Source: a virus. Taken from it: 32,197 bases of DNA. A model generated the notes under the pieces. It saw only the letters and a list, made by a program, of their open reading frames with translations. It was not told the origin of the DNA and did not search any database. The DNA is taken from the IMG/VR virus record IMGVR_UViG_3300025872_000028, positions 1-32,197 of that record; one strand, 5' to 3'. This document shows positions 11,628 to 32,197 of the stretch, one piece after another (position 1 is the first letter of the stretch; every line of letters begins with the position of its first letter). Made by a program: the position numbers and the translations under genes.

Positions 11628-11876
11628 CTAGTGCTGAAGGGCGGCGAGCAGGCCATCGTACCAACGCGGCCGGCGTGGTTTCGGCCTGATCCCATCGAGT
11701 GCCATCGCCTTCACGACGAGCTGGTTCAGGGCGTCGATGCCGAGCTCGATGTCGGCGAAAGTCTCCGCATCGACCGCGGGATCACCGCTCATGCGAATCA
11801 TCTTGATCATGGTGGCGGCATCGTACAGGTTTGCCACCACCGATTCCAGACGCTTATGCGTCGTCTCGGTCTTCAT
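11628..11876 (-). CDS. Small protein of unknown function, recombination operon
   Basis: 82 aa, start ATG at 11876 overlapping the stop of the Gam-like gene (ATGA), with GGAGG upstream. The protein is predicted all helical, with a start MKTETTHKRLESVVANLYDA, an acidic middle (DPAVDAETFADIELGIDALNQL) and a basic proline-rich tail (RPKPRRPRW). No catalytic motif or membrane segment is seen. Its place as last gene of an ERF/Gam-like operon suggests an accessory in early DNA metabolism, but that is inference only. The stop codon touches the T-run of the opposing terminator. Confidence 0.7.
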   Translation of the reverse strand: MKTETTHKRLESVVANLYDAATMIKMIRMSGDPAVDAETFADIELGIDALNQLVVKAMALDGIRPKPRRPRWYDGLLAALQH

Positions 11877-12454
11877 TTCGCTTCCTCCACCAGGCTCTTG
11901 ATGCGGACTGTTTCCTCGCCTTCGACGATGCCGAAGCCGATGAACTCGGCATCCTCGGGCTTCTCGATCATGGCGGTCTTCACGTCCTCCGGAATCTGCG
12001 ACACGAGGATGGACCGCTTGACCTTCACGGCTCCCGGACAATGCCTTTCCGCCCAGCGCAGGGCTTCCTCCTCGTCCTGCACCTCGATCTTGGGCGCGGA
12101 GGTTCGGAAGGACACGGTGCCGTAGGGCGTTCGCCAGGTCTTCGACTTGAGGTTCCCGGCGCGATCCCGCGGGAGCTGGGTCAAGGCGAAACCGGCGATC
12201 TCCTCCTGATACCGACGCTTGAACCATTCGAGCCGCGCCGCGGATTCGCGGGACAATCGACGAACGTGCTCGAGCACCGATTCCAGTTCCGCGGTCTTGG
12301 CCGCGTGGGCGGCTTCCAGCTCGAGGTGGCGGCGCATCACCTGCATCGCCACGTCCAGCGAGTCCACGGGACCTTCGATCCAATTGGAGACCGGACCGAG
12401 GTATTCCCCGGTCTGGTCGTCCCAAAGCTCTCCACCAATCTCAACGGTTGCCAT
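11873..12454 (-). CDS. Gam-like / Gp157-like protein (putative host-nuclease inhibitor)
   Basis: 193 aa from ATG 12454, with GGAGG 5 bases upstream. The N-terminal 45 residues are variable. Residues about 50-110 form a long coiled-coil helix (LELEAAHAAKTAELESVLEHV...), then TPYGTVSFRTSAPKIEVQDE (about 120-140) and an alpha/beta end with VKRSILVSQIPEDVKTAMIE. The TPxGTVSxR...PKIxVxDE motif after a long helix is typical of Gam and siphovirus Gp157 families. Gam proteins bind DNA ends and block host exonucleases such as RecBCD. Sitting beside the ERF annealing protein supports a role in recombination. It overlaps the erf stop by 14 bases. Confidence 0.65.
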   Translation of the reverse strand: MATVEIGGELWDDQTGEYLGPVSNWIEGPVDSLDVAMQVMRRHLELEAAHAAKTAELESVLEHVRRLSRESAARLEWFKRRYQEEIAGFALTQLPRDRAGNLKSKTWRTPYGTVSFRTSAPKIEVQDEEEALRWAERHCPGAVKVKRSILVSQIPEDVKTAMIEKPEDAEFIGFGIVEGEETVRIKSLVEEAK

Positions 12455-12932
12455 CGTATCCTCCAGAGGTGATCGGGCGCGTGATTCGCGTCTGCGCGGC
12501 CGGCCCGGTGGCTTGCGCGACGTTCGTGGCGGCATTGGCATCGTCGTCCTCATCGGCCATGATGCCGAGGATCGAGGCGATGCCGTATCGCCGACCGTAG
12601 GTGATCGCCGAGCCCATGCCGTGGGCATCGGGCTTGGTGATCGGGATGATCGCATCGGTGGCGATCCATTGGCCCGACTTGTGGATCAGGCGGGTGGTGA
12701 TGGTGACGGCCATCGGCCGAAAATTATCGTCCAGGCTGGCGATCGCCGAGCCTTGAACCACGGCGACGCCGTGCTTCGCCAGCACCGGCACCGCGGTTCC
12801 AAGGATGGCGTCGAGCGTCATATACCGGCTGCGGAACGCCGGGTTTCGGCCGTCCTTGCCGACGGCGGGCATATCGCGCTGGATTTGTGCCAGAGCGACG
12901 GCGATTTGATCGATCTCGTTTGATGTTTGCAT
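12441..12932 (-). CDS. erf: ERF-family single-strand annealing protein
   Basis: 163 aa from ATG 12932, which has GGAGG upstream and lies 16 bases downstream of a good -10 box. ERF hallmarks are clear: NEIDQIAVALAQIQRDMPAVGKD, then RYMTLDAILGTAVPVLAKHG (the Y-x-x-L-x-x-x... block), IHKSGQWIATDAIIPITK and GSAITYGRRYGIASILGI followed by acidic DEDDDAN. ERF proteins form rings on single-stranded DNA and anneal homologous strands, aiding circularisation or recombination-dependent replication. It is the first gene of the leftward operon, divergent from the XRE regulator, so it is probably early and repressible. Confidence 0.9.
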   Translation of the reverse strand: MQTSNEIDQIAVALAQIQRDMPAVGKDGRNPAFRSRYMTLDAILGTAVPVLAKHGVAVVQGSAIASLDDNFRPMAVTITTRLIHKSGQWIATDAIIPITKPDAHGMGSAITYGRRYGIASILGIMADEDDDANAATNVAQATGPAAQTRITRPITSGGYDGNR

Positions 12933-12947
12933 CGTTCCTCCATGCCC

Positions 12948-12976
12948 AATATAGCATCCGGTGCGATATCTGGCAA
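12948..12976 (-). promoter_or_regulatory. Leftward sigma-70-type promoter for the erf operon
   Basis: Read on the minus strand: TTGCCA (complement of 12971-12976), a 17-base spacer, then TATATT (complement of 12948-12953) preceded by TGC, giving an extended -10. The erf ATG is 16 bases beyond the -10. One copy of the GGTGCGATAT repeat lies in the spacer, where a bound repressor would block RNA polymerase. Confidence 0.8.
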
Positions 12977-12998
12977 GAATCATCCTACGGTGCGATAT
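12960..12998 (+). promoter_or_regulatory. Two direct operator-like repeats, GGTGCGATAT
   Basis: GGTGCGATAT occurs at 12960-12969 and 12989-12998, 29 bases apart, each preceded within a few bases by CATCC. The first copy is inside the spacer of the leftward promoter, and the second overlaps the -10 of the rightward promoter. This is the expected place for the binding sites of the XRE regulator that starts at 13008. Binding is inferred from position. Confidence 0.6.
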
Positions 12999-13007
12999 AC
13001 TCCCGGC
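12996..13007 (+). promoter_or_regulatory. Rightward promoter -10, leaderless spacing, for the XRE-sigma operon
   Basis: TATACT (12996-13001) is followed by exactly six bases and the ATG at 13008. Transcription would begin at or beside the A of the start codon, giving a leaderless mRNA. No SD-like sequence stands at a useful distance in front of this ATG. A -35 is weak (TGGCAA at 12971-12976 has a 19-base spacer, and is shared with the leftward -35 on the other strand). Confidence 0.6.
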
Positions 13008-13205
13008 ATGATTCGAGGCATCACACAAGAGGAAATCGCTCGGCGCATGGGATCGCACCAGAGCAACGTGAGTTCGTGGCTCTCCGGTCGGCGCATTCCG
13101 ACCAGGCGAAACCTTGTCCTGCTGGCCGAGGCGATGGAGACGACGCCCGAGAACCTCGCGGCTATCCTCTATCGCAAGCATATGGAGCGGCTCGGGCAAC
13201 CTTGA
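13008..13205 (+). CDS. XRE-family helix-turn-helix regulator (Cro-like)
   Basis: 65 aa. The product is essentially one DNA-binding domain: ITQEEIARRMGSHQSNVSSW is a classic helix-turn-helix (residues about 5-25), followed by LSGRRIPTRRNLVLLAEAM and a last helix TPENLAAILYRK. There is no oligomerisation or cleavage domain, so it resembles Cro rather than a LexA-like CI repressor. It lies against a divergent promoter region with two GGTGCGATAT repeats, which probably are its operators, controlling the erf operon and its own operon. The sigma factor gene starts inside its stop codon (TTGA), so the two are coupled. An upstream in-frame ATG at 12927 would lie across the promoter and is rejected. 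Confidence 0.85.
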   Translation: MIRGITQEEIARRMGSHQSNVSSWLSGRRIPTRRNLVLLAEAMETTPENLAAILYRKHMERLGQP

Positions 13206-14011
13206 AACCGACGGAGGCCCGCGTTCGCGGCGTGGCGACGCGGCTCCGTGCTCGGCATTATCAGGGCATCACCCGCGAGGAGGATCGTCTGCTGGTCGAG
13301 GCGTACCAGATGGGCATCGGGCGCGATCTCGCCATCGGAGCTCTCCTCGAGGCGCACAAGGGCCTTGGAATGGCGATCGCGAAACGGTATGCCCGGCCAG
13401 ATCAGATGGAGGACTGCCTGCTCGAAGCCGAGCTCGGGATCGCCGCCGCGGCCGAGCGGTTCGATCTCTCCCGGAACATCAAGTTCGCCACCTACGCCAC
13501 ATACCAGATCGTCAACCGCGTGAGGCGGTATTGCGTGGCGAACAACTGGGGAATCCGCGTCCCCGAATACGCCGCGTACAGGACGTTCCGCGTCCTGCGG
13601 ATGCTCAAGGCCGATCCCGATGCGACGGACGCCCAGATCGCCGAATCCCTCGATCTGACCATCCCGGCGGTCGAGGATTCGCGGCGCATCATCAAGACCG
13701 AGATGATCAGCCTGGACGATACCTACAATCCCGGCGGCATCGCGCCGGCCGATTACCTCGAGGACGAGACGCTCGACCTGCTCGGTGGAATGATCGCCGA
13801 GCACGAATCCAAGGCGATCGCCGCGGCCATCAAACGGCTTCGGCCGACCCACCAGCGGGCGATAATGCTTCGCTTCGGATTCGATGGGGATGATCCGCGA
13901 ACATACGAGCAAATGGCCGAGCTGCGCGGAGTCTCGCGCCAGGCGGCTTGCGACGCGGTGCTTCGTGCACTCGAGCGTCTGCGGAAGGAGCTTACCGATG
14001 AAGCACCATGA
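13202..14011 (+). CDS. RNA polymerase sigma factor, sigma-70 family
   Basis: 269 aa from TTG 13202 (TTGA overlap with the XRE stop). The start is uncertain: a GTG at 13232 is possible. Region 2 is seen at residues about 45-115, with DQMEDCLLEAELGIAAAAER, then FDLSRNIKFATYATYQIVNR, which matches the DxxxEGxxGLxxAxxxFD...FxTYAxxxI signature of core binding and -10 melting. Region 3 covers about 130-172. Region 4 (about 205-263) ends with the HTH TYEQMAELRGVSRQAACDAV that reads -35 sequences. The full domain set separates it from ECF factors. It probably directs host polymerase to phage promoters, with the late TGGGATAATC sites as candidates. Sigma factors are unusual in a phage this small. Confidence 0.88.
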   Translation: MKPTEARVRGVATRLRARHYQGITREEDRLLVEAYQMGIGRDLAIGALLEAHKGLGMAIAKRYARPDQMEDCLLEAELGIAAAAERFDLSRNIKFATYATYQIVNRVRRYCVANNWGIRVPEYAAYRTFRVLRMLKADPDATDAQIAESLDLTIPAVEDSRRIIKTEMISLDDTYNPGGIAPADYLEDETLDLLGGMIAEHESKAIAAAIKRLRPTHQRAIMLRFGFDGDDPRTYEQMAELRGVSRQAACDAVLRALERLRKELTDEAP

Positions 14012-21706: not shown

Positions 21707-21861
21707 AAGCAGGTCGACCGCGGATCGCTCCTGACGGGCCTCCTTGCCCGTCCTGCGGTGCCGGGACGCGCCCGCGTGGCACGGGCTTCCGCTGGTGCCC
21801 GAGCTGCGGGAAGCGCATCCGAATTCCGGTCCTGGTGGACCGCCGGCGGAAAAAATCGTGA
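21703..21861 (+). CDS. 52-aa zinc-ribbon protein
   Basis: 52 aa, ATG at 21703 in an ATGA overlap with the membrane-protein gene. It contains two CPSC knuckles (CPSCGAGT and CPSCGKRI), 18 residues apart, a minimal zinc ribbon, with basic ends (KAGRPRIAPDG, VLVDRRRKKS). A role in binding nucleic acid or modulating a partner is plausible. It overlaps the methyltransferase start by four bases, so it could be a cofactor of that enzyme (inference). Confidence 0.65.
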   Translation: MKAGRPRIAPDGPPCPSCGAGTRPRGTGFRWCPSCGKRIRIPVLVDRRRKKS

Positions 21862-23180
21862 AGTACCTCAGCGTCTGCTCCGGCATCGAGGCGGCTACGG
21901 TAGCGTGGCACGGCCTCGGCTGGGAGCCCGTGGCATTCAGCGAGATTGAACCGTTCCCGTGCCAGCTACTGGCAGAGCGGTTTCCGACCGTCCCCAACCT
22001 GGGGGACATGACAAAGTATCGGGAGTGGCAAATTGAACGTGGAGCAATTGACCTTTTGGTCGGAGGAACACCTTGCCAAGCTTTCTCCGTCGCAGGACTT
22101 CGGAAGGGACTCGAGGACCCCAGGGGCAACCTCGCACTCGTATTTGTTGGAATGGTTGACCACTACCGCCCCGAATGGGTTGTCTGGGAAAACGTCCCCG
22201 GTGTTTTGTCGTCCAACGGAGGACGAGATTTTGGTTCCATCGTCGGGGCGTTGGGGCAACTCGGGTATGGGTGGGCCTACCGAGTGCTGGACGCTCAGTA
22301 CTTCGGAGTACCCCAGCGACGCCGTAGAGTCTTCCTTGTCGCGCATTCTTCAGGAGACTCCAGACGTTGCGCCGAAGTACTTTTTGAGCCGGAAAGCCTG
22401 CGAGGGGATACTAAGGCGCGCAGGCGCACGGGGAAAGACGCTCCCGCCGATGCTGGAGCAAGCCTTGAGGCAGGTCTGCCACGGACCGTTGGAGCCTTGT
22501 GCGCGGACACCCACCCCGGAGCCTACAGCGGACAAGATGCCTATACCGGCCGACTGATCCCGGCATCCATCCTGTACGAGAACCACGCGAACGACTCCCG
22601 GGTAACGCAGGAGGATTCGACCTGCCCGACGGTCACCAGCCGTTGGGGCACCGGCGGGAACAATACTCCGCTGGTGCAACAGGCATACCGCAAAAGCCGC
22701 CGGGCGCAATCCACGGATGACTTCGAGACGTGGGTGGACGACGGCGTGGCGAACACGGTGAACTGCTTCGACCAAGGCGACATTCGGACAACCCACGCGG
22801 TGGCCGTGCAACAGCCGATTGTGCTGATGGATCAGGGTGGGGGTGTGATGCAGGTCAACACGGATGGTCAGACCGGCACCCTTAGGCGGGAAACCCATGG
22901 TCATGAACCGATAGTGTTGGTGCAACAGCCGATGGCGTTCAGCCCGCAAGGCGGTGGCGATATGCGCGGGGTTGATCCGCTCATAAGGCACCAGATGGCA
23001 GTCAGGCGCCTAACGCCGGTCGAGTGCGAGCGGCTCCAAGGATTCCCGGACGGATGGACCGACATCAGGCCCAAGGGCAAGGATACGCCCGACTCGCCAC
23101 GGTACAAAGCCTTGGGGAACAGTATGGCGGTCCCGGTCATGCGTTGGATAGGGGAGCGTATCGCAACCGTGGTACGATGA
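21858..23180 (+). CDS. DNA (cytosine-5) methyltransferase
   Basis: 440 aa, GTG at 21858 in a GTGA overlap. All main C5-MTase motifs are present: I (LSVCSGIEAATVAWHGLG, AdoMet binding), IV with catalytic Cys73 (GGTPCQAFS), VI ENV (111-113), VIII QRRRRVFLVA (153-162), IX (RRLTPVECERLQGFPDGWT) and X (ALGNSMAVPV, about 418-427). Between VIII and IX lies a variable region of about 210 residues for target recognition, longer than in minimal enzymes, with repeated VQQ-x and QGGG blocks. No restriction nuclease partner is nearby, so it is an orphan enzyme, probably protecting phage DNA from host restriction. The recognition site cannot be read from the sequence. Confidence 0.93.
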   Translation: MKYLSVCSGIEAATVAWHGLGWEPVAFSEIEPFPCQLLAERFPTVPNLGDMTKYREWQIERGAIDLLVGGTPCQAFSVAGLRKGLEDPRGNLALVFVGMVDHYRPEWVVWENVPGVLSSNGGRDFGSIVGALGQLGYGWAYRVLDAQYFGVPQRRRRVFLVAHSSGDSRRCAEVLFEPESLRGDTKARRRTGKDAPADAGASLEAGLPRTVGALCADTHPGAYSGQDAYTGRLIPASILYENHANDSRVTQEDSTCPTVTSRWGTGGNNTPLVQQAYRKSRRAQSTDDFETWVDDGVANTVNCFDQGDIRTTHAVAVQQPIVLMDQGGGVMQVNTDGQTGTLRRETHGHEPIVLVQQPMAFSPQGGGDMRGVDPLIRHQMAVRRLTPVECERLQGFPDGWTDIRPKGKDTPDSPRYKALGNSMAVPVMRWIGERIATVVR

Positions 23181-23259: not shown

Positions 23260-23293
23260 GGCCTCGATGCGCTACCACGCATCGGGGCCTTTT
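23260..23293 (+). terminator. Rho-independent terminator before the late head operon
   Basis: GGCC-T-CGATGCG (23260-23271) pairs with CGCATCG-G-GGCC (23278-23289), with one T-G wobble and a 6-base loop, followed by TTTT. It ends the methyltransferase operon, five bases before the portal promoter. Confidence 0.85.
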
Positions 23294-23297
23294 CGCA

Positions 23298-23312
23298 TGG
23301 GATAATCAGACC
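23298..23312 (+). promoter_or_regulatory. Late promoter with leaderless spacing, portal gene
   Basis: TGGGATAATC (23298-23307) holds an extended -10 (TG-G-GATAAT). GATAAT ends six bases before the portal ATG, so the transcript should start at the start codon. No SD lies at proper distance. The same 10-mer occurs before the genes at 26241 and 28600. No conserved -35 is seen. Confidence 0.7.
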
Positions 23313-25181
23313 ATGGGTATCCTCGATCGCCTCCTCGGGCGCAAGGCAATGGCCGATCCATCCGCGCCGCTCCCGCTCCCGCTCGGGCAATCCCGGGACA
23401 TCTACCTCACCGGTTACGGATCGGGCCAGCTGGTCTCGATGCTTCGCCGAGTCCTACCGGGATCACACCGCGACTGGTCCTTGGTGGCCGGCGACCTCGG
23501 GCTGAACAGCGTGATCGCGCCCGCGATGGACTGGTACATCCGCAACTGGCCCCAAGGAACGCCTCGGGTCATGCGGAAGGTGGACTCCCAGCAGGTCGAG
23601 CCAGTCGAGGATCACCCGGTCATTCAGCTGATGCAGGAGCCCGAGCCTGGCATGGTCGGGAACCTGCTCTGGGGATGGGTTATTCAGGACTACAAGCTGT
23701 TCGGGAACGCGTACCTCCGCAAGCAGCGGATCAGCGGTCCTGGCTCCGCGGTGGTGGCCCTGCAATACCTCCCGCAGGACATGATCCGGCCGGTGGGCGA
23801 TGGCCGGAACCCGCTCACGCACTTCGTCTACACGACCGATGGGCGATCCTACGAGCTCCCGGTCGAGGACGTGATTCACCTGCGGTATGGCCGCGATCCC
23901 TCCGACATGAGGCTCGGGCGGTCCACGGTCCAGGCGGTGCTCCGCGAGATCGCGACCGACAATACCGCGAGCTCCGCGGCCTTCGGCCTCCTTTCTAACG
24001 GCGCGATGCCGAGCATCATCGTCGGCCCGGATTCCAACGGTTCCGCGCAGGTCGACATCTCGCCAGACGACGCCCAGCAGGTCAAGCGAAGCCTCCGCGA
24101 GAACCTCACCGGCGACAATGCCGGCGGCATCGTCGTGATGTCCGGCCCGTACAAGATGGACAAGGTGAGCTTGACTCCTTCCGAGCTCGCCCTGGACTCC
24201 GTGCGGCGTGTACCGGAGGAGCGTATCTGCTCGGCCCTCGGTCTCAATCCGATGGTGCTCGGCCTCGGCTCCGGCCTCGATCGCTCGACCTACAGCAACT
24301 ACGAGCGGGCGCAGCAGGCCGCGTGGGAAGACGGCATGGTGCCGCTCATGCGGGCGGTGGCCGACACGCTCACCGTGGCACTCCTGCCGGACTTCCCCGA
24401 ATCGCAGGAAGGCGACTTTATCGAATTCGACCTTTCAGGCGTCCGCGCCCTGATGGACGACCGCCAGAGCGAGGCCGAGCGGGCGGAGCGGCTCTACAAG
24501 GCGGGCGTGGCCGATCTGGCCGAAGCGAAGCGCATCGCGGGCCTCGAGGCCGCGCCAGAAGATGAGGGCGTCATGCATCCCGACGCATCTCAGCAAACCG
24601 CGGCCGGCGGTGGACCAGCGATGTCTGTCGAGGACGCCGCGAATGCGGCTGGTATCCTCATCCGCTCTGGTTACGATCCGCAATCGGTGACTCAATTCCT
24701 CGGCCTTCAAGTTCAACATACCGGCGCGGCTCCGGTAACACTTCGCGAAGAGACCAAGGCCATCAAGTCTCACCCAACCGCGGCCATGCAGGAGGCCGCC
24801 CGCCGAGCCCTCGCCTGGAAGGAAGAGGGACGGCCCGGCGGAACGCGGGTCGGTCTCGCCAGGGCGAACCAGATCGTGAACGGCGATCTGATCAGCGAGG
24901 ACACCATCCTGCGGATGCACTCTTTCTTCTCTCGCCATGAGGTCGACAAGGAAGCCGAGGGCTTCTCCCAGGGCGAGGAAGGCTTCCCATCTCCCGGCCG
25001 CGTGGCATGGGACCTCTGGGGAGGCGATGCCGGGCAGGTCTGGGCCGCGAGGCTCCGCGACAAGATCATGCGCGGCGAGAAGCTCCCGGCCAAGGCGGAC
25101 GGCTGCGACCACGGCTCGGAGGTGCCGTACGAAAGCCACCCTTTCTACGGGTGGTCGAGCATACCTCCGGCCGAGCGGTAA
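23313..25181 (+). CDS. Portal protein with long C-terminal extension
   Basis: 622 aa from ATG 23313, chosen for the promoter placed 6 bases upstream. The first 400 residues are an HK97-type portal: LNSVIAPAMDWYIRNWPQGT, VEDHPVIQLMQEPEPGM, WGWVIQDYKLFGNAYLRKQR, EDVIHLRYGRDPSD, RRVPEERICSALGLNPMVLG. Twelve copies form the DNA entry ring at one capsid vertex. The C-terminal 150 residues are a separate domain: EETKAIKSHPTAAMQEAARR, then RANQIVNGDLISEDTILRMH and WDLWGGDAGQVWAARLRDK. This domain appears in other phage structural proteins, but its function is not known to me. Portals of this type are usually about 400-450 aa, so the fusion is notable. Confidence 0.9.
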   Translation: MGILDRLLGRKAMADPSAPLPLPLGQSRDIYLTGYGSGQLVSMLRRVLPGSHRDWSLVAGDLGLNSVIAPAMDWYIRNWPQGTPRVMRKVDSQQVEPVEDHPVIQLMQEPEPGMVGNLLWGWVIQDYKLFGNAYLRKQRISGPGSAVVALQYLPQDMIRPVGDGRNPLTHFVYTTDGRSYELPVEDVIHLRYGRDPSDMRLGRSTVQAVLREIATDNTASSAAFGLLSNGAMPSIIVGPDSNGSAQVDISPDDAQQVKRSLRENLTGDNAGGIVVMSGPYKMDKVSLTPSELALDSVRRVPEERICSALGLNPMVLGLGSGLDRSTYSNYERAQQAAWEDGMVPLMRAVADTLTVALLPDFPESQEGDFIEFDLSGVRALMDDRQSEAERAERLYKAGVADLAEAKRIAGLEAAPEDEGVMHPDASQQTAAGGGPAMSVEDAANAAGILIRSGYDPQSVTQFLGLQVQHTGAAPVTLREETKAIKSHPTAAMQEAARRALAWKEEGRPGGTRVGLARANQIVNGDLISEDTILRMHSFFSRHEVDKEAEGFSQGEEGFPSPGRVAWDLWGGDAGQVWAARLRDKIMRGEKLPAKADGCDHGSEVPYESHPFYGWSSIPPAER

Positions 25182-26233
25182 AGCGTACCGGCCAGGAATC
25201 GGAACTCTACCGAGCCGCGCAAGCCTTCCGGAATGGCCTCCTCAAGGGCGAGGAGACCGCGGTGGGTCGGATGCGCGGCATCTACGCCGAAGCCACGGCG
25301 CAGCTCGAGCGTGAGCTGATGGCCCTCGAGGCGCGGCTTGCCGAGCGTGAGGCCCAAGGCAAGCCTCTCGCGGATGCGGCGATGGCCATGCGCGATCGCC
25401 TTGAGCGTCTCATCGAGCAGACCCGCCAACGCCTCGCGGACGTGAGCGGCGAAGGTGTCCGCGTGGTCTCCGACGGCCAACAGACCGCGCTCGAGTTCGT
25501 GAACGCTGGAACGGGCGAGCTCCTCGCGGCCTCCACCGGCGATCCGAGCCGCGCCGCGGGCATCCTCGCGGGATTCGATCGGCTCGACGACGAGGCGATC
25601 CAAGCGTTCGTCGGCTTCTCGTCCGACGGGTCTCCGCTTGCGGTCCTGTTCGACCAGATCGCGACGGACGTGCCGAATGCGCTTCAATACACCCTCGCCA
25701 GCGGGATCGCCCAAGGACGCAATCCGCGGGCCGTGGCGCGGGAAATGTCCGCGCTTGCGAGTCTACCGCGCCGGCGGGCAGAGACGATCGCCAGGACGGA
25801 GATGATCCGCGCGGCCCGCGAAGGCCAGCGGCTCCAATACGGAAGCAACCCCGCGGTGACCGGCTACCGCCGCGTGGCGGCGCAGGATGCCCGGGTATGC
25901 CCGGCTTGCCTCGCGCTATCCGGTACGCTCCACAAGACGGCCGAGATCATGCCGAGCCATCCCAACTGCCGATGCGTCATGGTGCCGGTGACGCCGAGCC
26001 TGGCCGAGATCACCGGCGATCCATCGATCCCCGACATGAGGCCGGGACCGGTGACGCCCGAGATCATCATGGCTGGTCTTTCGGAGTCAGAGCTGCGCGG
26101 TATCCTCGGGCCTGCGCGGCTCGAGCTGCTCGATCAAGGCTATCCTCTGGCCGACATGGTCGAGGTGCGGATGGACCCGCGGTGGGGACCAACGACGCGG
26201 GTGAAGCCTCTCAAGGAGCTGGAGGTGGGATAA
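25151..26233 (+). CDS. Minor head protein, phage Mu gpF-like
   Basis: 360 aa if GTG 25151 is the start, which gives a 31-base overlap with the portal gene. A GTG at 25262 has a better SD (GAGGAG) but would cut a helix that looks conserved, so the start is open. The N-terminal 100 residues are long helices (YRAAQAFRNGLLKGEETAVG, LEARLAEREAQGK). The MuF core lies at about 205-285: RRRAETIARTEMIRAAREGQ, then CPACLALSGTLH and HPNCRCVMVPV, a CxxC-H-CxC-like metal site. MuF proteins lie in the head near the portal and may be ejected with DNA. Portal-MuF-protease-capsid order fits well. The protein's end overlaps the next promoter. Confidence 0.85.
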   Translation: MVEHTSGRAVKRTGQESELYRAAQAFRNGLLKGEETAVGRMRGIYAEATAQLERELMALEARLAEREAQGKPLADAAMAMRDRLERLIEQTRQRLADVSGEGVRVVSDGQQTALEFVNAGTGELLAASTGDPSRAAGILAGFDRLDDEAIQAFVGFSSDGSPLAVLFDQIATDVPNALQYTLASGIAQGRNPRAVAREMSALASLPRRRAETIARTEMIRAAREGQRLQYGSNPAVTGYRRVAAQDARVCPACLALSGTLHKTAEIMPSHPNCRCVMVPVTPSLAEITGDPSIPDMRPGPVTPEIIMAGLSESELRGILGPARLELLDQGYPLADMVEVRMDPRWGPTTRVKPLKELEVG

Positions 26234-26240
26234 TCGGAGC
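26226..26240 (+). promoter_or_regulatory. Late promoter with leaderless spacing, protease gene
   Basis: TGGGATAATC (26226-26235) includes the MuF stop codon (TAA 26231-26233). GATAAT ends six bases before ATG 26241, as at 23298 and 28585. An SD-like GGAGG at 26221 is too far (15 bases) and GGAG at 26236 too close. So the gene may be served by a leaderless transcript besides read-through. Confidence 0.6.
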
Positions 26241-27242
26241 ATGGACGATATGGCGACCATCATCGCGGATGCGGTCAAGAGCGACCGCCTGGGACACGTC
26301 AAGGGCTACCTGGTGCGCTTCGGCGATCCGAGCAAGGCCGACCTCGAGGGCGAGTATTTCACTCCCCAGACCGACTTCGGCTTCCCCATCAAGGCTGGTC
26401 AGCGCATCCCGCTGAACGTCTACTACCACCACGGCATGGATTCGAAGGTGGGGCGCAAGAGTATCGGCACGGGCTACATCAAGGCCGACGACACGGGCCT
26501 CTGGTATGAGGCCCAGCTGGACATGGCCGACGAATACGCCGCGATGGTGGCGAAGCTCTGCAAGGAAGGCAAGATGGGCTACAGCTCGGGCGCGGCCGGC
26601 CATCTCGTCGAGCGCAAGAGCGTTGGCGGTGCATCCGAGATCACGCGGTGGCCGATCGCCGAAGCTTCGATCACGCCGACGCCCGCGGAATGGCGCAACG
26701 GCGTGAAGTCCATCGAGGACTGGTATGGAATGGAGATGCCGGAGATGGACGAAGGCGAGATGGAGATGCCGGAACCGCCGGCCGAGGGAATGGACCCGGC
26801 CACGTTCGCCGACGAGACCTTCGCCCAGGAGCTCCGGTTCGAGGTGCTCCACGAGGCGATCGAAGCCTACTACGAGGCGTTGTGCCGCGGTATCGAGGGC
26901 GTGGCGATGTTGCCCGCCGGCGACCGCTCGGCCTTCGTGGTGGCCCTCCTGGATGCCTTCTCGGGCCGGTTGTCCGACATGGTCGGGCAGATGGGCCTTG
27001 ATGCCAAATCGCTCCAGCGTGTCTCGCCGGACACGCTCCGAGCGACTGAACGTCGATTGCGGGATGCAATCGGCCTAAGCCGGTCCGATGCCAAGCGGCT
27101 GGCACCGGAGGTTTGGGACCTCCTGCGGGACGCAGGCCAAACCAAGGGGACGGACTTCACGCCGGACACGCCGCCGGCCACGTCGACCTCGATGCGGGAG
27201 GATATGCTTGCCCGCATCAACTACCTCTTGGAGATCGTATGA
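26241..27242 (+). CDS. Prohead protease (HK97 gp4-like, S78 type), probably with scaffold region
   Basis: 333 aa. The protease occupies the first 155 residues: GHVKGYLVRFGDPSKADLEG, IPLNVYYHHGM with the probable catalytic His63/64, GYSSGAAGHLVER with Ser115/116, and ITRWPIAEASITPTPAE. These are the HK97-type prohead protease blocks. The following acidic Met/Glu/Pro linker (MEMPEMDEGEMEMPEPP) and helical C terminus (about 190-333) resemble a scaffolding or delta domain fused to the protease. The enzyme removes scaffold during capsid maturation. The major capsid gene overlaps its stop by four bases. Confidence 0.88.
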   Translation: MDDMATIIADAVKSDRLGHVKGYLVRFGDPSKADLEGEYFTPQTDFGFPIKAGQRIPLNVYYHHGMDSKVGRKSIGTGYIKADDTGLWYEAQLDMADEYAAMVAKLCKEGKMGYSSGAAGHLVERKSVGGASEITRWPIAEASITPTPAEWRNGVKSIEDWYGMEMPEMDEGEMEMPEPPAEGMDPATFADETFAQELRFEVLHEAIEAYYEALCRGIEGVAMLPAGDRSAFVVALLDAFSGRLSDMVGQMGLDAKSLQRVSPDTLRATERRLRDAIGLSRSDAKRLAPEVWDLLRDAGQTKGTDFTPDTPPATSTSMREDMLARINYLLEIV

Positions 27243-28525: not shown

Positions 28526-28547
28526 TACAGGTTCCTGGCTGATCGAG

Positions 28548-28583
28548 CCCTCCCGGTGGATGCACCGGGAGGGTTTCCCTTTT
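28548..28583 (+). terminator. Rho-independent terminator after the major capsid gene
   Basis: CCCTCCCGGTG (28548-28558) pairs perfectly with CACCGGGAGGG (28563-28573) around GATG, followed by TTTCCCTTTT. It ends two bases before the promoter of the next unit. A partial terminator here would keep capsid transcripts in excess over connector transcripts. Confidence 0.9.
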
Positions 28584-28584
28584 G

Positions 28585-28599
28585 TGGGATAATCCGATC
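28585..28599 (+). promoter_or_regulatory. Late promoter with leaderless spacing, connector/tail unit
   Basis: TGGGATAATC (28585-28594) with GATAAT ending six bases before ATG 28600. It is the third copy of the motif. As at the portal gene, a terminator stands immediately upstream, making a terminator-promoter junction between transcription units. Confidence 0.7.
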
Positions 28600-29100
28600 A
28601 TGGGACTAAGCCGAGCCGATTCGATCGCCCGCGTGAGCCTCTGGTGCGATGCGACCTCCTATCCCGAGGTGAGCACGACCGATATCGGCACCGTGGTCGA
28701 CCAGTTCAGCCGGTTCACGACATGGACCGCGAGCACGGCATATGCCGTTGGTGATCGCGTGGTGCCATCCACGCCGAATGGCCGGGTGTACGAGTGCCGC
28801 ACCGCCGGGACCAGCGCGACGACCGAACCAGACTGGCCGACCGCTCCCGGCAACCTGTTCCAGGGATGGCTCTATTCCGAGGGCGCATCCGATCCCCAAC
28901 TCCTCTGGGTGGACGTTGGACCGGCGCACGTCGAGCGGTACGATGTCCGCTCCGCGGCGCGGCAGGTCTGGCTTATCAAGGCATCCCGCGTGGCGGGCGA
29001 AATCGACGCCAAGGACGGATCGAGCGACGTCAAGCTATCCCAGCTCCGGGCGCATTGTCTGGGTCAGGCGGAGGTGTATCGTCCGCTGGTGATCATCTGA
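28600..29100 (+). CDS. Head-tail adaptor with inserted carbohydrate-binding-like module
   Basis: 166 aa from ATG 28600. An ATG at 28582 would overlap the promoter. The two ends fit a head-tail connector (HK97 gp6-type): LSRADSIARVSLWCDATSYP and AARQVWLIKASRVAGEIDAK, then DVKLSQLRAHCLGQAEVYRP (the SQLxxHCLxxAxxYRP part is typical). Between them lies WTASTAYAVGDRVVPSTPNG, then YECRTAGTSATTEPDWPT (residues about 44-85). That block is the W-x-Y-x-x-G-D-x-V...Y-x-C-x-x-x-G-T-S-x-x-x-x-P-x-W pattern of small carbohydrate-binding or decoration modules seen in phage proteins. The adaptor would join portal and stopper. The insert could decorate the neck. Confidence 0.65.
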   Translation: MGLSRADSIARVSLWCDATSYPEVSTTDIGTVVDQFSRFTTWTASTAYAVGDRVVPSTPNGRVYECRTAGTSATTEPDWPTAPGNLFQGWLYSEGASDPQLLWVDVGPAHVERYDVRSAARQVWLIKASRVAGEIDAKDGSSDVKLSQLRAHCLGQAEVYRPLVII

Positions 29101-31496: not shown

Positions 31497-32197
31497 ATGG
31501 CGAAACTGACGGTCAAAGCCGGCTCAACCAGCCGTCGCGAGTATGTCCTGATCCTCGACTCGACCAGCACGGCTGGTGCCGGGGATACTGGGCTCCTCTA
31601 CAACACCTCCGGCCTCAAAGCTTATTATGTGCGGCCTGGCGGGTCGGCCACGGCGATCACGCTTGCGACGCAGACCGTGACCGGCGCGTATTCGTCCGGC
31701 GGTTTCGTCGAGGTCGATGCAACCAATATGCCGGGCATCTACCGATTCGATGTCCCGGACGCGGTGTTCGCCGCCGGTGTTGACAAGGCCATCGTGATGT
31801 TGTCTGGCGCGACCGGCATGGCTCCGGTTGCGCTTGAGTACGATCTGGTGGCATACGATCCGTTGGATACGGTGCGCCTCGGCCTCACCGCGCTCCCCAA
31901 CGTGGCATCGGGATCGGCTGGTGCGATCATCACGAGCGGCACCGGTACGGCCCAGCTCTCGACCACGAGCGGCAACGTCACGGTTGGCACCAACAACGAC
32001 AAGACGGGCTACAGCCTGACGCAAGCATTCCCATCCAATTTCTCGAGCCTCGCCATTACGGCCGGCGGCGCGGTAACCGCCGGGACGGTCTCCGACAAGA
32101 CCGGATATTCGCTCACCCAAGCGTTCCCGACGAACTTCTCGAGCCTGGCGATTACGGCTGGCGGTGCTGTTACCGCTGGCACCGTTTCGGACAAAAC
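31497..32197 (+). CDS. Tail fibre / receptor-binding-type repeat protein, 5' part (continues at 1-1547)
   Basis: ATG 31497 lies one base after the preceding stop, so the genes are coupled. The N-terminal 115 residues form a compact beta domain: AKLTVKAGSTSRREYVLILD, then YYVRPGGSATAITLATQTVT, FVEVDATNMPGIYRFDVPD and PVALEYDLVAYDP. This domain precedes DKTGYSLT-type repeats in many environmental phage fibres and probably anchors the fibre. The first 96-bp repeat begins at 31977. Frame is kept across the circular join (position 32073 equals 3), giving 706 aa in total. Confidence 0.75.
   Translation, partial: MAKLTVKAGSTSRREYVLILDSTSTAGAGDTGLLYNTSGLKAYYVRPGGSATAITLATQTVTGAYSSGGFVEVDATNMPGIYRFDVPDAVFAAGVDKAIVMLSGATGMAPVALEYDLVAYDPLDTVRLGLTALPNVASGSAGAIITSGTGTAQLSTTSGNVTVGTNNDKTGYSLTQAFPSNFSSLAITAGGAVTAGTVSDKTGYSLTQAFPTNFSSLAITAGGAVTAGTVSDK
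31977..32072 (+). repeat. 96-bp tandem repeat in the fibre gene (unit 1)
   Basis: Encodes VTVGTNNDKTGYSLTQAFPS and NFSSLAITAGGA. It is the first of three consecutive units; the other two are at 3-98 (also 32073-32168) and 99-194. Confidence 0.85.
32071..32197. repeat. Terminal direct repeat (copy 2 of 2)
   Basis: Identical to bases 1-127. See the first copy. It supports a circular genome map of about 32,070 bp. Confidence 0.9.

Follow-up and report, generated by a model that had tools for sequence, protein, structure and literature searches.

The window, that is the whole stretch of 32,197 nucleotides that was analysed (IMG/VR record IMGVR_UViG_3300025872_000028), is a complete phage genome with 32,070 unique bases (32.07 kb), since the circularly assembled record ends in a direct terminal repeat of 127 bp (1-127 and 32071-32197) and a contig of the relative G001 spans the end-to-start junction. 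On its plus strand, a gene for a Cro-like XRE regulator of 65 aa (13008..13205; Pfam HTH_3, 6.4e-12) is followed by a gene for a phage sigma-70 factor of 269 aa with a TTG start (13202..14011). Mu Gam-like and Erf recombination genes (11873-12935, minus strand) are divergent from this pair and share a common control region with it, and a gene for a C-5 cytosine DNA methylase (21780-23180; Pfam 3.4e-55) lies between the terminase and the portal operon. Three late operons follow, all on the plus strand. The first begins with the portal gene (23313..25181; phrog_2662, 8.6e-52), the second with a prohead serine protease gene (Peptidase_S78, 26241..27242; Pfam PF04586, 5.6e-8) that precedes the capsid gene (phrog_10), and the last with a gene for a head-decoration-like protein (28600..29100; phrog_20658, 1.4e-9), after which the operon leads round the circular map to tail and lysis genes. 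The head-decoration-like protein also has a weak match to the chitin-binding module CBM_5_12 (25.2 bits, slightly below the cut-off). Residues 488-585 of the portal protein form a C-terminal domain with a family of its own (phrog_2859), which is the only part of the portal with bacterial relatives (four unrelated MAGs, 57-66% identity); a contig scan with the portal returned no true portal homologue among 84,980 bacterial and archaeal species.

The 269-aa protein belongs to the sigma-70 family by several measures. Pfam detects Sigma70_r2 at residues 48-116 (1.1e-7) and Sigma70_r4 at 209-262 (5e-8), both above the gathering scores, the superfamily model TIGR02937 gives 55.9 bits against a cut-off of 42.9, and the sigma factor family PHROG_351 is matched at 4.9e-34. 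Pfam returns no match to region 3, but residues 42-262 align unbroken with SigA and SigB of solved holoenzymes (phmmer), which shows that region 3 is present, next to regions 2 and 4 and part of region 1.2. An AlphaFold model built with 32 sequences (mean pLDDT 80.5) contains helices for each sigma domain. Almost all of its best PDB matches are sigma factors, and the top viral matches that have a name carry a sigma factor annotation, with low whole-chain TM-scores (about 0.3-0.4) because the linker and the placement of the domains are uncertain in the model. A preceding sequence-only reading had described a complete sigma-70 factor in a 32-kb phage, distinct from ECF factors, and had proposed a profile search. 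The open reading frame, both Pfam domains, PHROG_351 and the SigA/SigB alignment agree with this description, and the Pfam, TIGR02937 and PHROG_351 profiles all place the protein among the sigma factors. An ECF sigma, which consists of regions 2 and 4 only, is ruled out by the continuous alignment through region 3 and by the helices at residues 122-164 between the domains of the model. The protein is not a group 1 RpoD/SigA factor either (TIGR02393; 72.5 bits, equivalog cut-off 354), nor a member of the Sig70-cyanoRpoD subfamily (TIGR02997; 68.1 bits, cut-off 384.5). TIGR02997 is the best match for the sigma factors of two relatives (L023 and L060), and those relatives with the RRY residues discussed below for which this model is listed score 70-114 bits against the same 384.5. 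Membership of the T4 gp55 family, which structurally has no DNA-binding region 4, is excluded by the Sigma70_r4 match (5e-8).

The stop codon of the XRE gene (TGA, 13203-13205) overlaps the TTG start of the sigma gene in the sequence TTGA, which is replaced by GTGA in the relative L003. In more distant relatives about 0.1-1.7 kb separates the two genes, and XRE lies upstream of sigma in most relatives. The vicinity of XRE and sigma is general, and the start-in-stop coupling is limited to the subclade of the window; the coupling that had been proposed from the overlap therefore stands for this subclade and not as a general trait. Upstream of XRE, an early -10 element, TATACT with T at -12 (12996..13001, plus strand), is located 6 nt 5' of the ATG and is also found in L003. 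It is the sole occurrence of TANNNT-N6-ATG in the window, in which this pattern is not enriched (1 found, 3.8 expected). A direct repeat, CGGTGCGATAT, occurs in two copies (12959-12969 and 12988-12998) in the stretch that separates Erf from the divergently transcribed XRE gene, where they probably serve as operators for XRE: one copy overlaps the XRE -10, the other occupies a place between the two genes. At the putative operator position, L003 has a perfect palindrome, TTATATCGG-ATG-CCGATATAA. Because of the copy over its own -10 and the palindrome of L003 at this place, XRE probably limits its own operon, and it is likely to do so as an autorepressor that would bind the CGGTGCGATAT copies. 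The sequence-only reading had assumed that the early regulator allows production of the sigma factor, for which autorepression through the two copies, as we infer it, is the more likely substitute.

Exact copies of TGGGATAATC occur at four places in the window, all on the plus strand (2594, 23298, 26226 and 28585), and at the last three GATAAT ends exactly 6 nt 5' of an ATG. These three contain the extended -10 sequence TGGGATAAT at 23298..23306 (late promoter 1, 6 nt 5' of the portal ATG at 23313), 26226..26234 (late promoter 2, 6 nt 5' of the protease ATG at 26241) and 28585..28593 (late promoter 3, 6 nt 5' of the ATG at 28600, the gene after the capsid). The copy at 2594-2603 was rejected as a promoter; it lies inside a gene (2324-2803), encodes Trp-Asp-Asn-Gln codons that are kept in L003, and has no start codon at the proper spacing. 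The pattern TGNGATANT-N6-RTG has exactly three matches in the window against 0.05 expected, and three were reached in 0 of 100 shuffles. When two mismatches are allowed, TGGGATAATC is not enriched in the window (24 found, 21.8 expected), hence only the exact and spaced form of the motif is counted here. Around the late genes, scanning for consensus promoters gave matches at chance level only. Just 5' of late promoter 1, a terminator-like hairpin with a 12-bp stem, a loop of 6 and TTTT (23260..23293, plus strand) was read by eye and falls under the T-run threshold of the terminator scan, which did detect a terminator hairpin after the capsid gene, just 5' of late promoter 3 (28545..28576, plus strand). 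The order of hairpin and then promoter at the portal recurs in many relatives. All three late sites have the -10 hexamer exactly 6 nt from the start codon, in line with the distance of about 6 nt in leaderless promoters, and Shine-Dalgarno-like sequences precede several of the downstream late-operon genes in the window. As a -10 element 6 nt away from the ATG, the distance of GATAAT here, would place the transcription start on the ATG itself and yield a leaderless mRNA, the late sites look like extended -10 promoters of leaderless mRNAs, without a -35 element. Late promoters of the type TGGGATAATC had been read earlier at the same three positions. The motif has proven real, regularly spaced and located at the first gene of each operon, and the form of the putative promoters is revised to -10-only and leaderless-looking.

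The motif is not restricted to the window. A scan of viral contigs with the window portal returned 80 contigs, and nearly all of those that reach far enough 5' show TGGGATAAT or TGGGATACT at the portal site; TGGGATACT is the late motif in most relatives, TGGGATAAT that of the window. Among distinct 40-nt portal upstreams the exact motif is found in 79 of 81, the exceptions being G010 and L013 (TGGGACAAT). In the loci gathered by that stage, TGGGATAMT is followed by an ATG exactly 6 nt further on at 93 of 120 distinct sites, whereas control motifs with one or a few bases changed have 0-1 such sites. The true late sites in relatives belong to the same three gene families as in the window (68 portal, 33 protease, 28 third-gene), and exactly three late sites each are present in two relatives of about 32 kb (G011, G016) and in a record of 27.9 kb (G015). 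The consensus over 61 non-portal late sites is TG-TGGGATAMT, six bases ending in C, and ATG; these 61 sites have no conserved -35 element, with no more than a slight enrichment in A and T around -27 to -23. TGGGATA(A/C)T-N6-ATGGG also matched other conserved genes of the viral contigs; none of these matches falls in the three-gene regulon, and in most of them the letters are read in frame as Trp-Asp-Asn or Trp-Asp-Thr. Two sites of L044 (11501 and 13804) carry G at -8 (TGGGATAGT), and such variation within the motif might track sigma subtypes. One contig, G014 (62434 bases; L143 and L170), has two different RRY sigmas and five late-type sites, and represents a double genome or else an assembly in which two phage genomes were fused.

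A fixed distance of 6 nt to the ATG would also fit a ribosome signal, and TGGGATAMT could in principle be a translation or mRNA signal 5' of the start codon instead of a promoter. This is very improbable, for the motif occurs only at three operon-first genes, often directly after a terminator hairpin, does not resemble a Shine-Dalgarno sequence and retains A and T where a -10 typically has them. It moreover parallels the TATATA-type element that, together with TTGACA, lies at equal spacing 5' of XRE.

This parallel permits a direct comparison of early and late promoters in the same phages. In relatives the early XRE -10, a host-type element, is likewise positioned about six bases 5' of the ATG, so that early and late promoters share frame and spacing and differ at base -12 and in the -35 element. 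Base -12 is G in all 97 distinct portal upstreams of the window phage and its relatives; at the early XRE promoters it is T in 37 of 41, A in 4 and G in none. TTGACA is absent from all 97 portal upstreams and present in 34 of 41 early XRE upstreams. The late genes have a dedicated motif that is distinct from the early promoters, which is one of the traits of a phage late sigma factor that works like SPO1 gp34 or T4 gp55. In region 2.4, where base -12 is read, the window sigma has Arg108-Arg109-Tyr110 (RRY), residues that are invariant in an alignment of seven family members. By alignment to SigA, Asn105 and Arg108 occupy the positions of residues 437 and 440 of E. coli sigma70, which govern -12, as the substitutions Q437H and T440I suppress a change at this base (PMC2613000). 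The sigma factors of the window and L003 are 65% identical overall, with 84% in region 2.3-2.4 and 43-75% elsewhere. An arginine at the T440 position alone cannot define specificity, because it is also present in four unrelated phage sigmas (L105, L120 of the record G010, L127 and L134).

The motif and the sigma factor are found together. Each portal-family contig that extends far enough upstream encodes the sigma: it is present in 7 of 7 portal-scan records that reach past the gathered locus, in G001, which was found via its sigma, in L060, and in three contigs that end inside the sigma gene. RRY is present in the portal-family sigmas wherever the stretch of region 2.4 is covered, with the exception of G010. 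Among 32 RRY-sigma loci that include the portal, the motif is placed at six bases in 30 and at five bases in two (L156, on the same contig as L060, and L158), both with TGGGATACT. At 19 loci of other phage sigmas no late site was found, and apart from L120 none of these is a portal relative. L120 belongs to G010, a record of 40.3 kb with homologues of the portal, protease, capsid and third gene at 48-63% identity. Its sigma is without RRY and all three late sites are gone; the portal has CATAAT six bases 5' of the ATG, while the protease and the third gene have Shine-Dalgarno-like sequences in place of the motif. G010 is the one genome in which the linkage between sigma and motif breaks, and since the relatives are mostly one lineage, their co-occurrence does not count as independent evidence many times over. 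Sigma and motif could also be conserved side by side with no direct link. In a phylogeny of the sigma factors, clade support for the RRY group is weak (64/40), and a single origin of the RRY sigmas is not established by this tree.

These data also bear on whether the host can read the late sites by itself. GATAAT and GATACT are only one or two bases off the -10 consensus and an extended -10 can function without a -35, so the late sites might be ordinary extended -10 promoters of the host principal sigma. The phage sigma would then serve another purpose, for example redirecting or repressing host transcription. Cyanophage sigmas are described as repressing cyanobacterial growth in a passage of a freshwater-phage paper that cites this result (PMC9878933). 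We regard this explanation as improbable: all of the 97 portal upstreams have G at -12, a position occupied by T or A in the early promoters of these phages, no sufficiently long contig is without the sigma, and the motif and the RRY sigma go together and are both lost in G010. The assignment of the sigma factor to the TGGGATAATC late promoters, as originally made, is supported by the co-conservation, the loss of the motif alongside a different sigma, and the contrast at -12 between early and late promoters. On these sequence comparisons the protein is very probably a phage-encoded late sigma factor with a promoter class of its own, an extended -10 with G at -12 that would serve the three late operons. 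Somewhat further goes the view, to which we give about an even chance, that a widespread lineage of small phages has a SigA-like late sigma whose region 2.4, with the T440-position arginine in RRY, is re-specified for G and not T at -12. The late regulon of this lineage would consist of three leaderless, -10-only promoters that differ from the early class chiefly in a single base pair and the -35, and the match would have persisted even as the remainder of the sigma drifted apart to about 20-35% identity.

Very probably, as judged from the genome, the phage reprograms the host polymerase for the production of shell and tail late in infection. Early on, the host holoenzyme would transcribe the XRE-sigma operon from the ordinary promoter, with T at -12, just 5' of the XRE start, and the new sigma would join the host core RNA polymerase. 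The sigma-bound core would then read the extended -10 found only in the phage, TGGGATAAT or in most relatives TGGGATACT, with G at -12 and no -35, and would begin the transcript with the A of the ATG that lies six bases further on, which would leave the first gene of each late operon leaderless. The three late promoters would drive the portal, the prohead protease and capsid, and the head-tail, tail and lysis genes, respectively. The hairpins 5' of promoters 1 and 3 (two of the three promoters) may block read-through and separate late from earlier transcription, in which case late expression would depend on the new sigma. The first late genes would be translated leaderless, and several downstream genes by means of Shine-Dalgarno-like sequences. 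Because the window sigma is translated along with the early XRE, late timing requires some delay. It is conceivable, though rather unlikely, that the phage sigma serves the late promoters and needs a second phage factor, a co-activator or an anti-host-sigma factor, for its timing or activity; this is compatible with the best explanation, a late sigma with its own promoters. T4 gp55 needs co-factors (gp33 and the sliding clamp), and the position of the window sigma in an early operon suggests that its timing may need another layer. The full region 4 of the window sigma argues against such a need, as does, weakly, a scan of part of the encoded proteins, without many of the small ORFs, in which nothing homologous to a co-activator was seen. 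Of the timed switch proposed from the sequence, the late sigma and promoter class is now much better supported, and autorepression by XRE appears likelier than its permissive role.

Late genes served by a phage sigma factor are well established; T4 gp55 is without a normal region 4, and SPO1 late promoters carry a -35 element. SPO1 gp34 (late) and gp28 (middle) and T4 gp55 likewise redirect the host core to dedicated phage promoters, including those of virion genes (PMC9429907). SPO1 and T4 are much larger than the window phage, which combines a genome of ~32 kb with a SigA-like sigma with regions 2-4 and three -10-only, leaderless-looking promoters with G at -12. A sigma gene was found in about 13% of phage genomes in one survey (PMC9429907), and freshwater phages of 30-31 kb with a TIGR02997-type sigma have been reported, with a picocyanobacterial host assigned largely on that basis (PMC9878933). 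The suggestion that sigma factors are uncommon in small siphoviruses needs amending in view of these phages, for which no promoters were given. They have a similar genome size and a single sigma gene and, likened by description only, are probably related to the window phage; the report covers the presence of the sigma gene and a cyanobacterial host prediction and no promoters (PMC9878933). The sigmas studied here reach 68-114 of the 384.5 bits of TIGR02997. As the RRY sigmas score at most 114 of these bits, the cyanobacterial host assignment is a lead and not a test. The Prochlorococcus siphovirus P-SS2 also has its own sigma-70 genes, but its genome exceeds 100 kb, its two sigmas belong to groups 2 and 3, and a promoter class reserved for them is not described there (PMC2784084). 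Leaderless promoters of Deinococcus-Thermus and Actinobacteria likewise have a -10 directly 5' of the ORF and yield leaderless mRNAs (PMC12340547); they are TANNNT elements of the host sigma with T at -12, whereas the window's late class carries G at -12 and occurs at three phage operons only. In the literature searched, with most subscription journals outside it, neither a phage sigma that uses leaderless late promoters nor a dedicated class with G at -12 was described.

The window phage offers a compact and testable example of how a small phage could seize transcription by means of a single protein and three short stretches of DNA. Together with its relatives it provides a natural series of sigma and promoter pairs for studying how region 2.4 reads base -12. 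The combination of TGGGATAMT-N6-ATG with an RRY sigma is a signature by which late operons can be recognised in many uncultured phages. It also suggests that leaderless late mRNAs may be common among phages known only from metagenomes.
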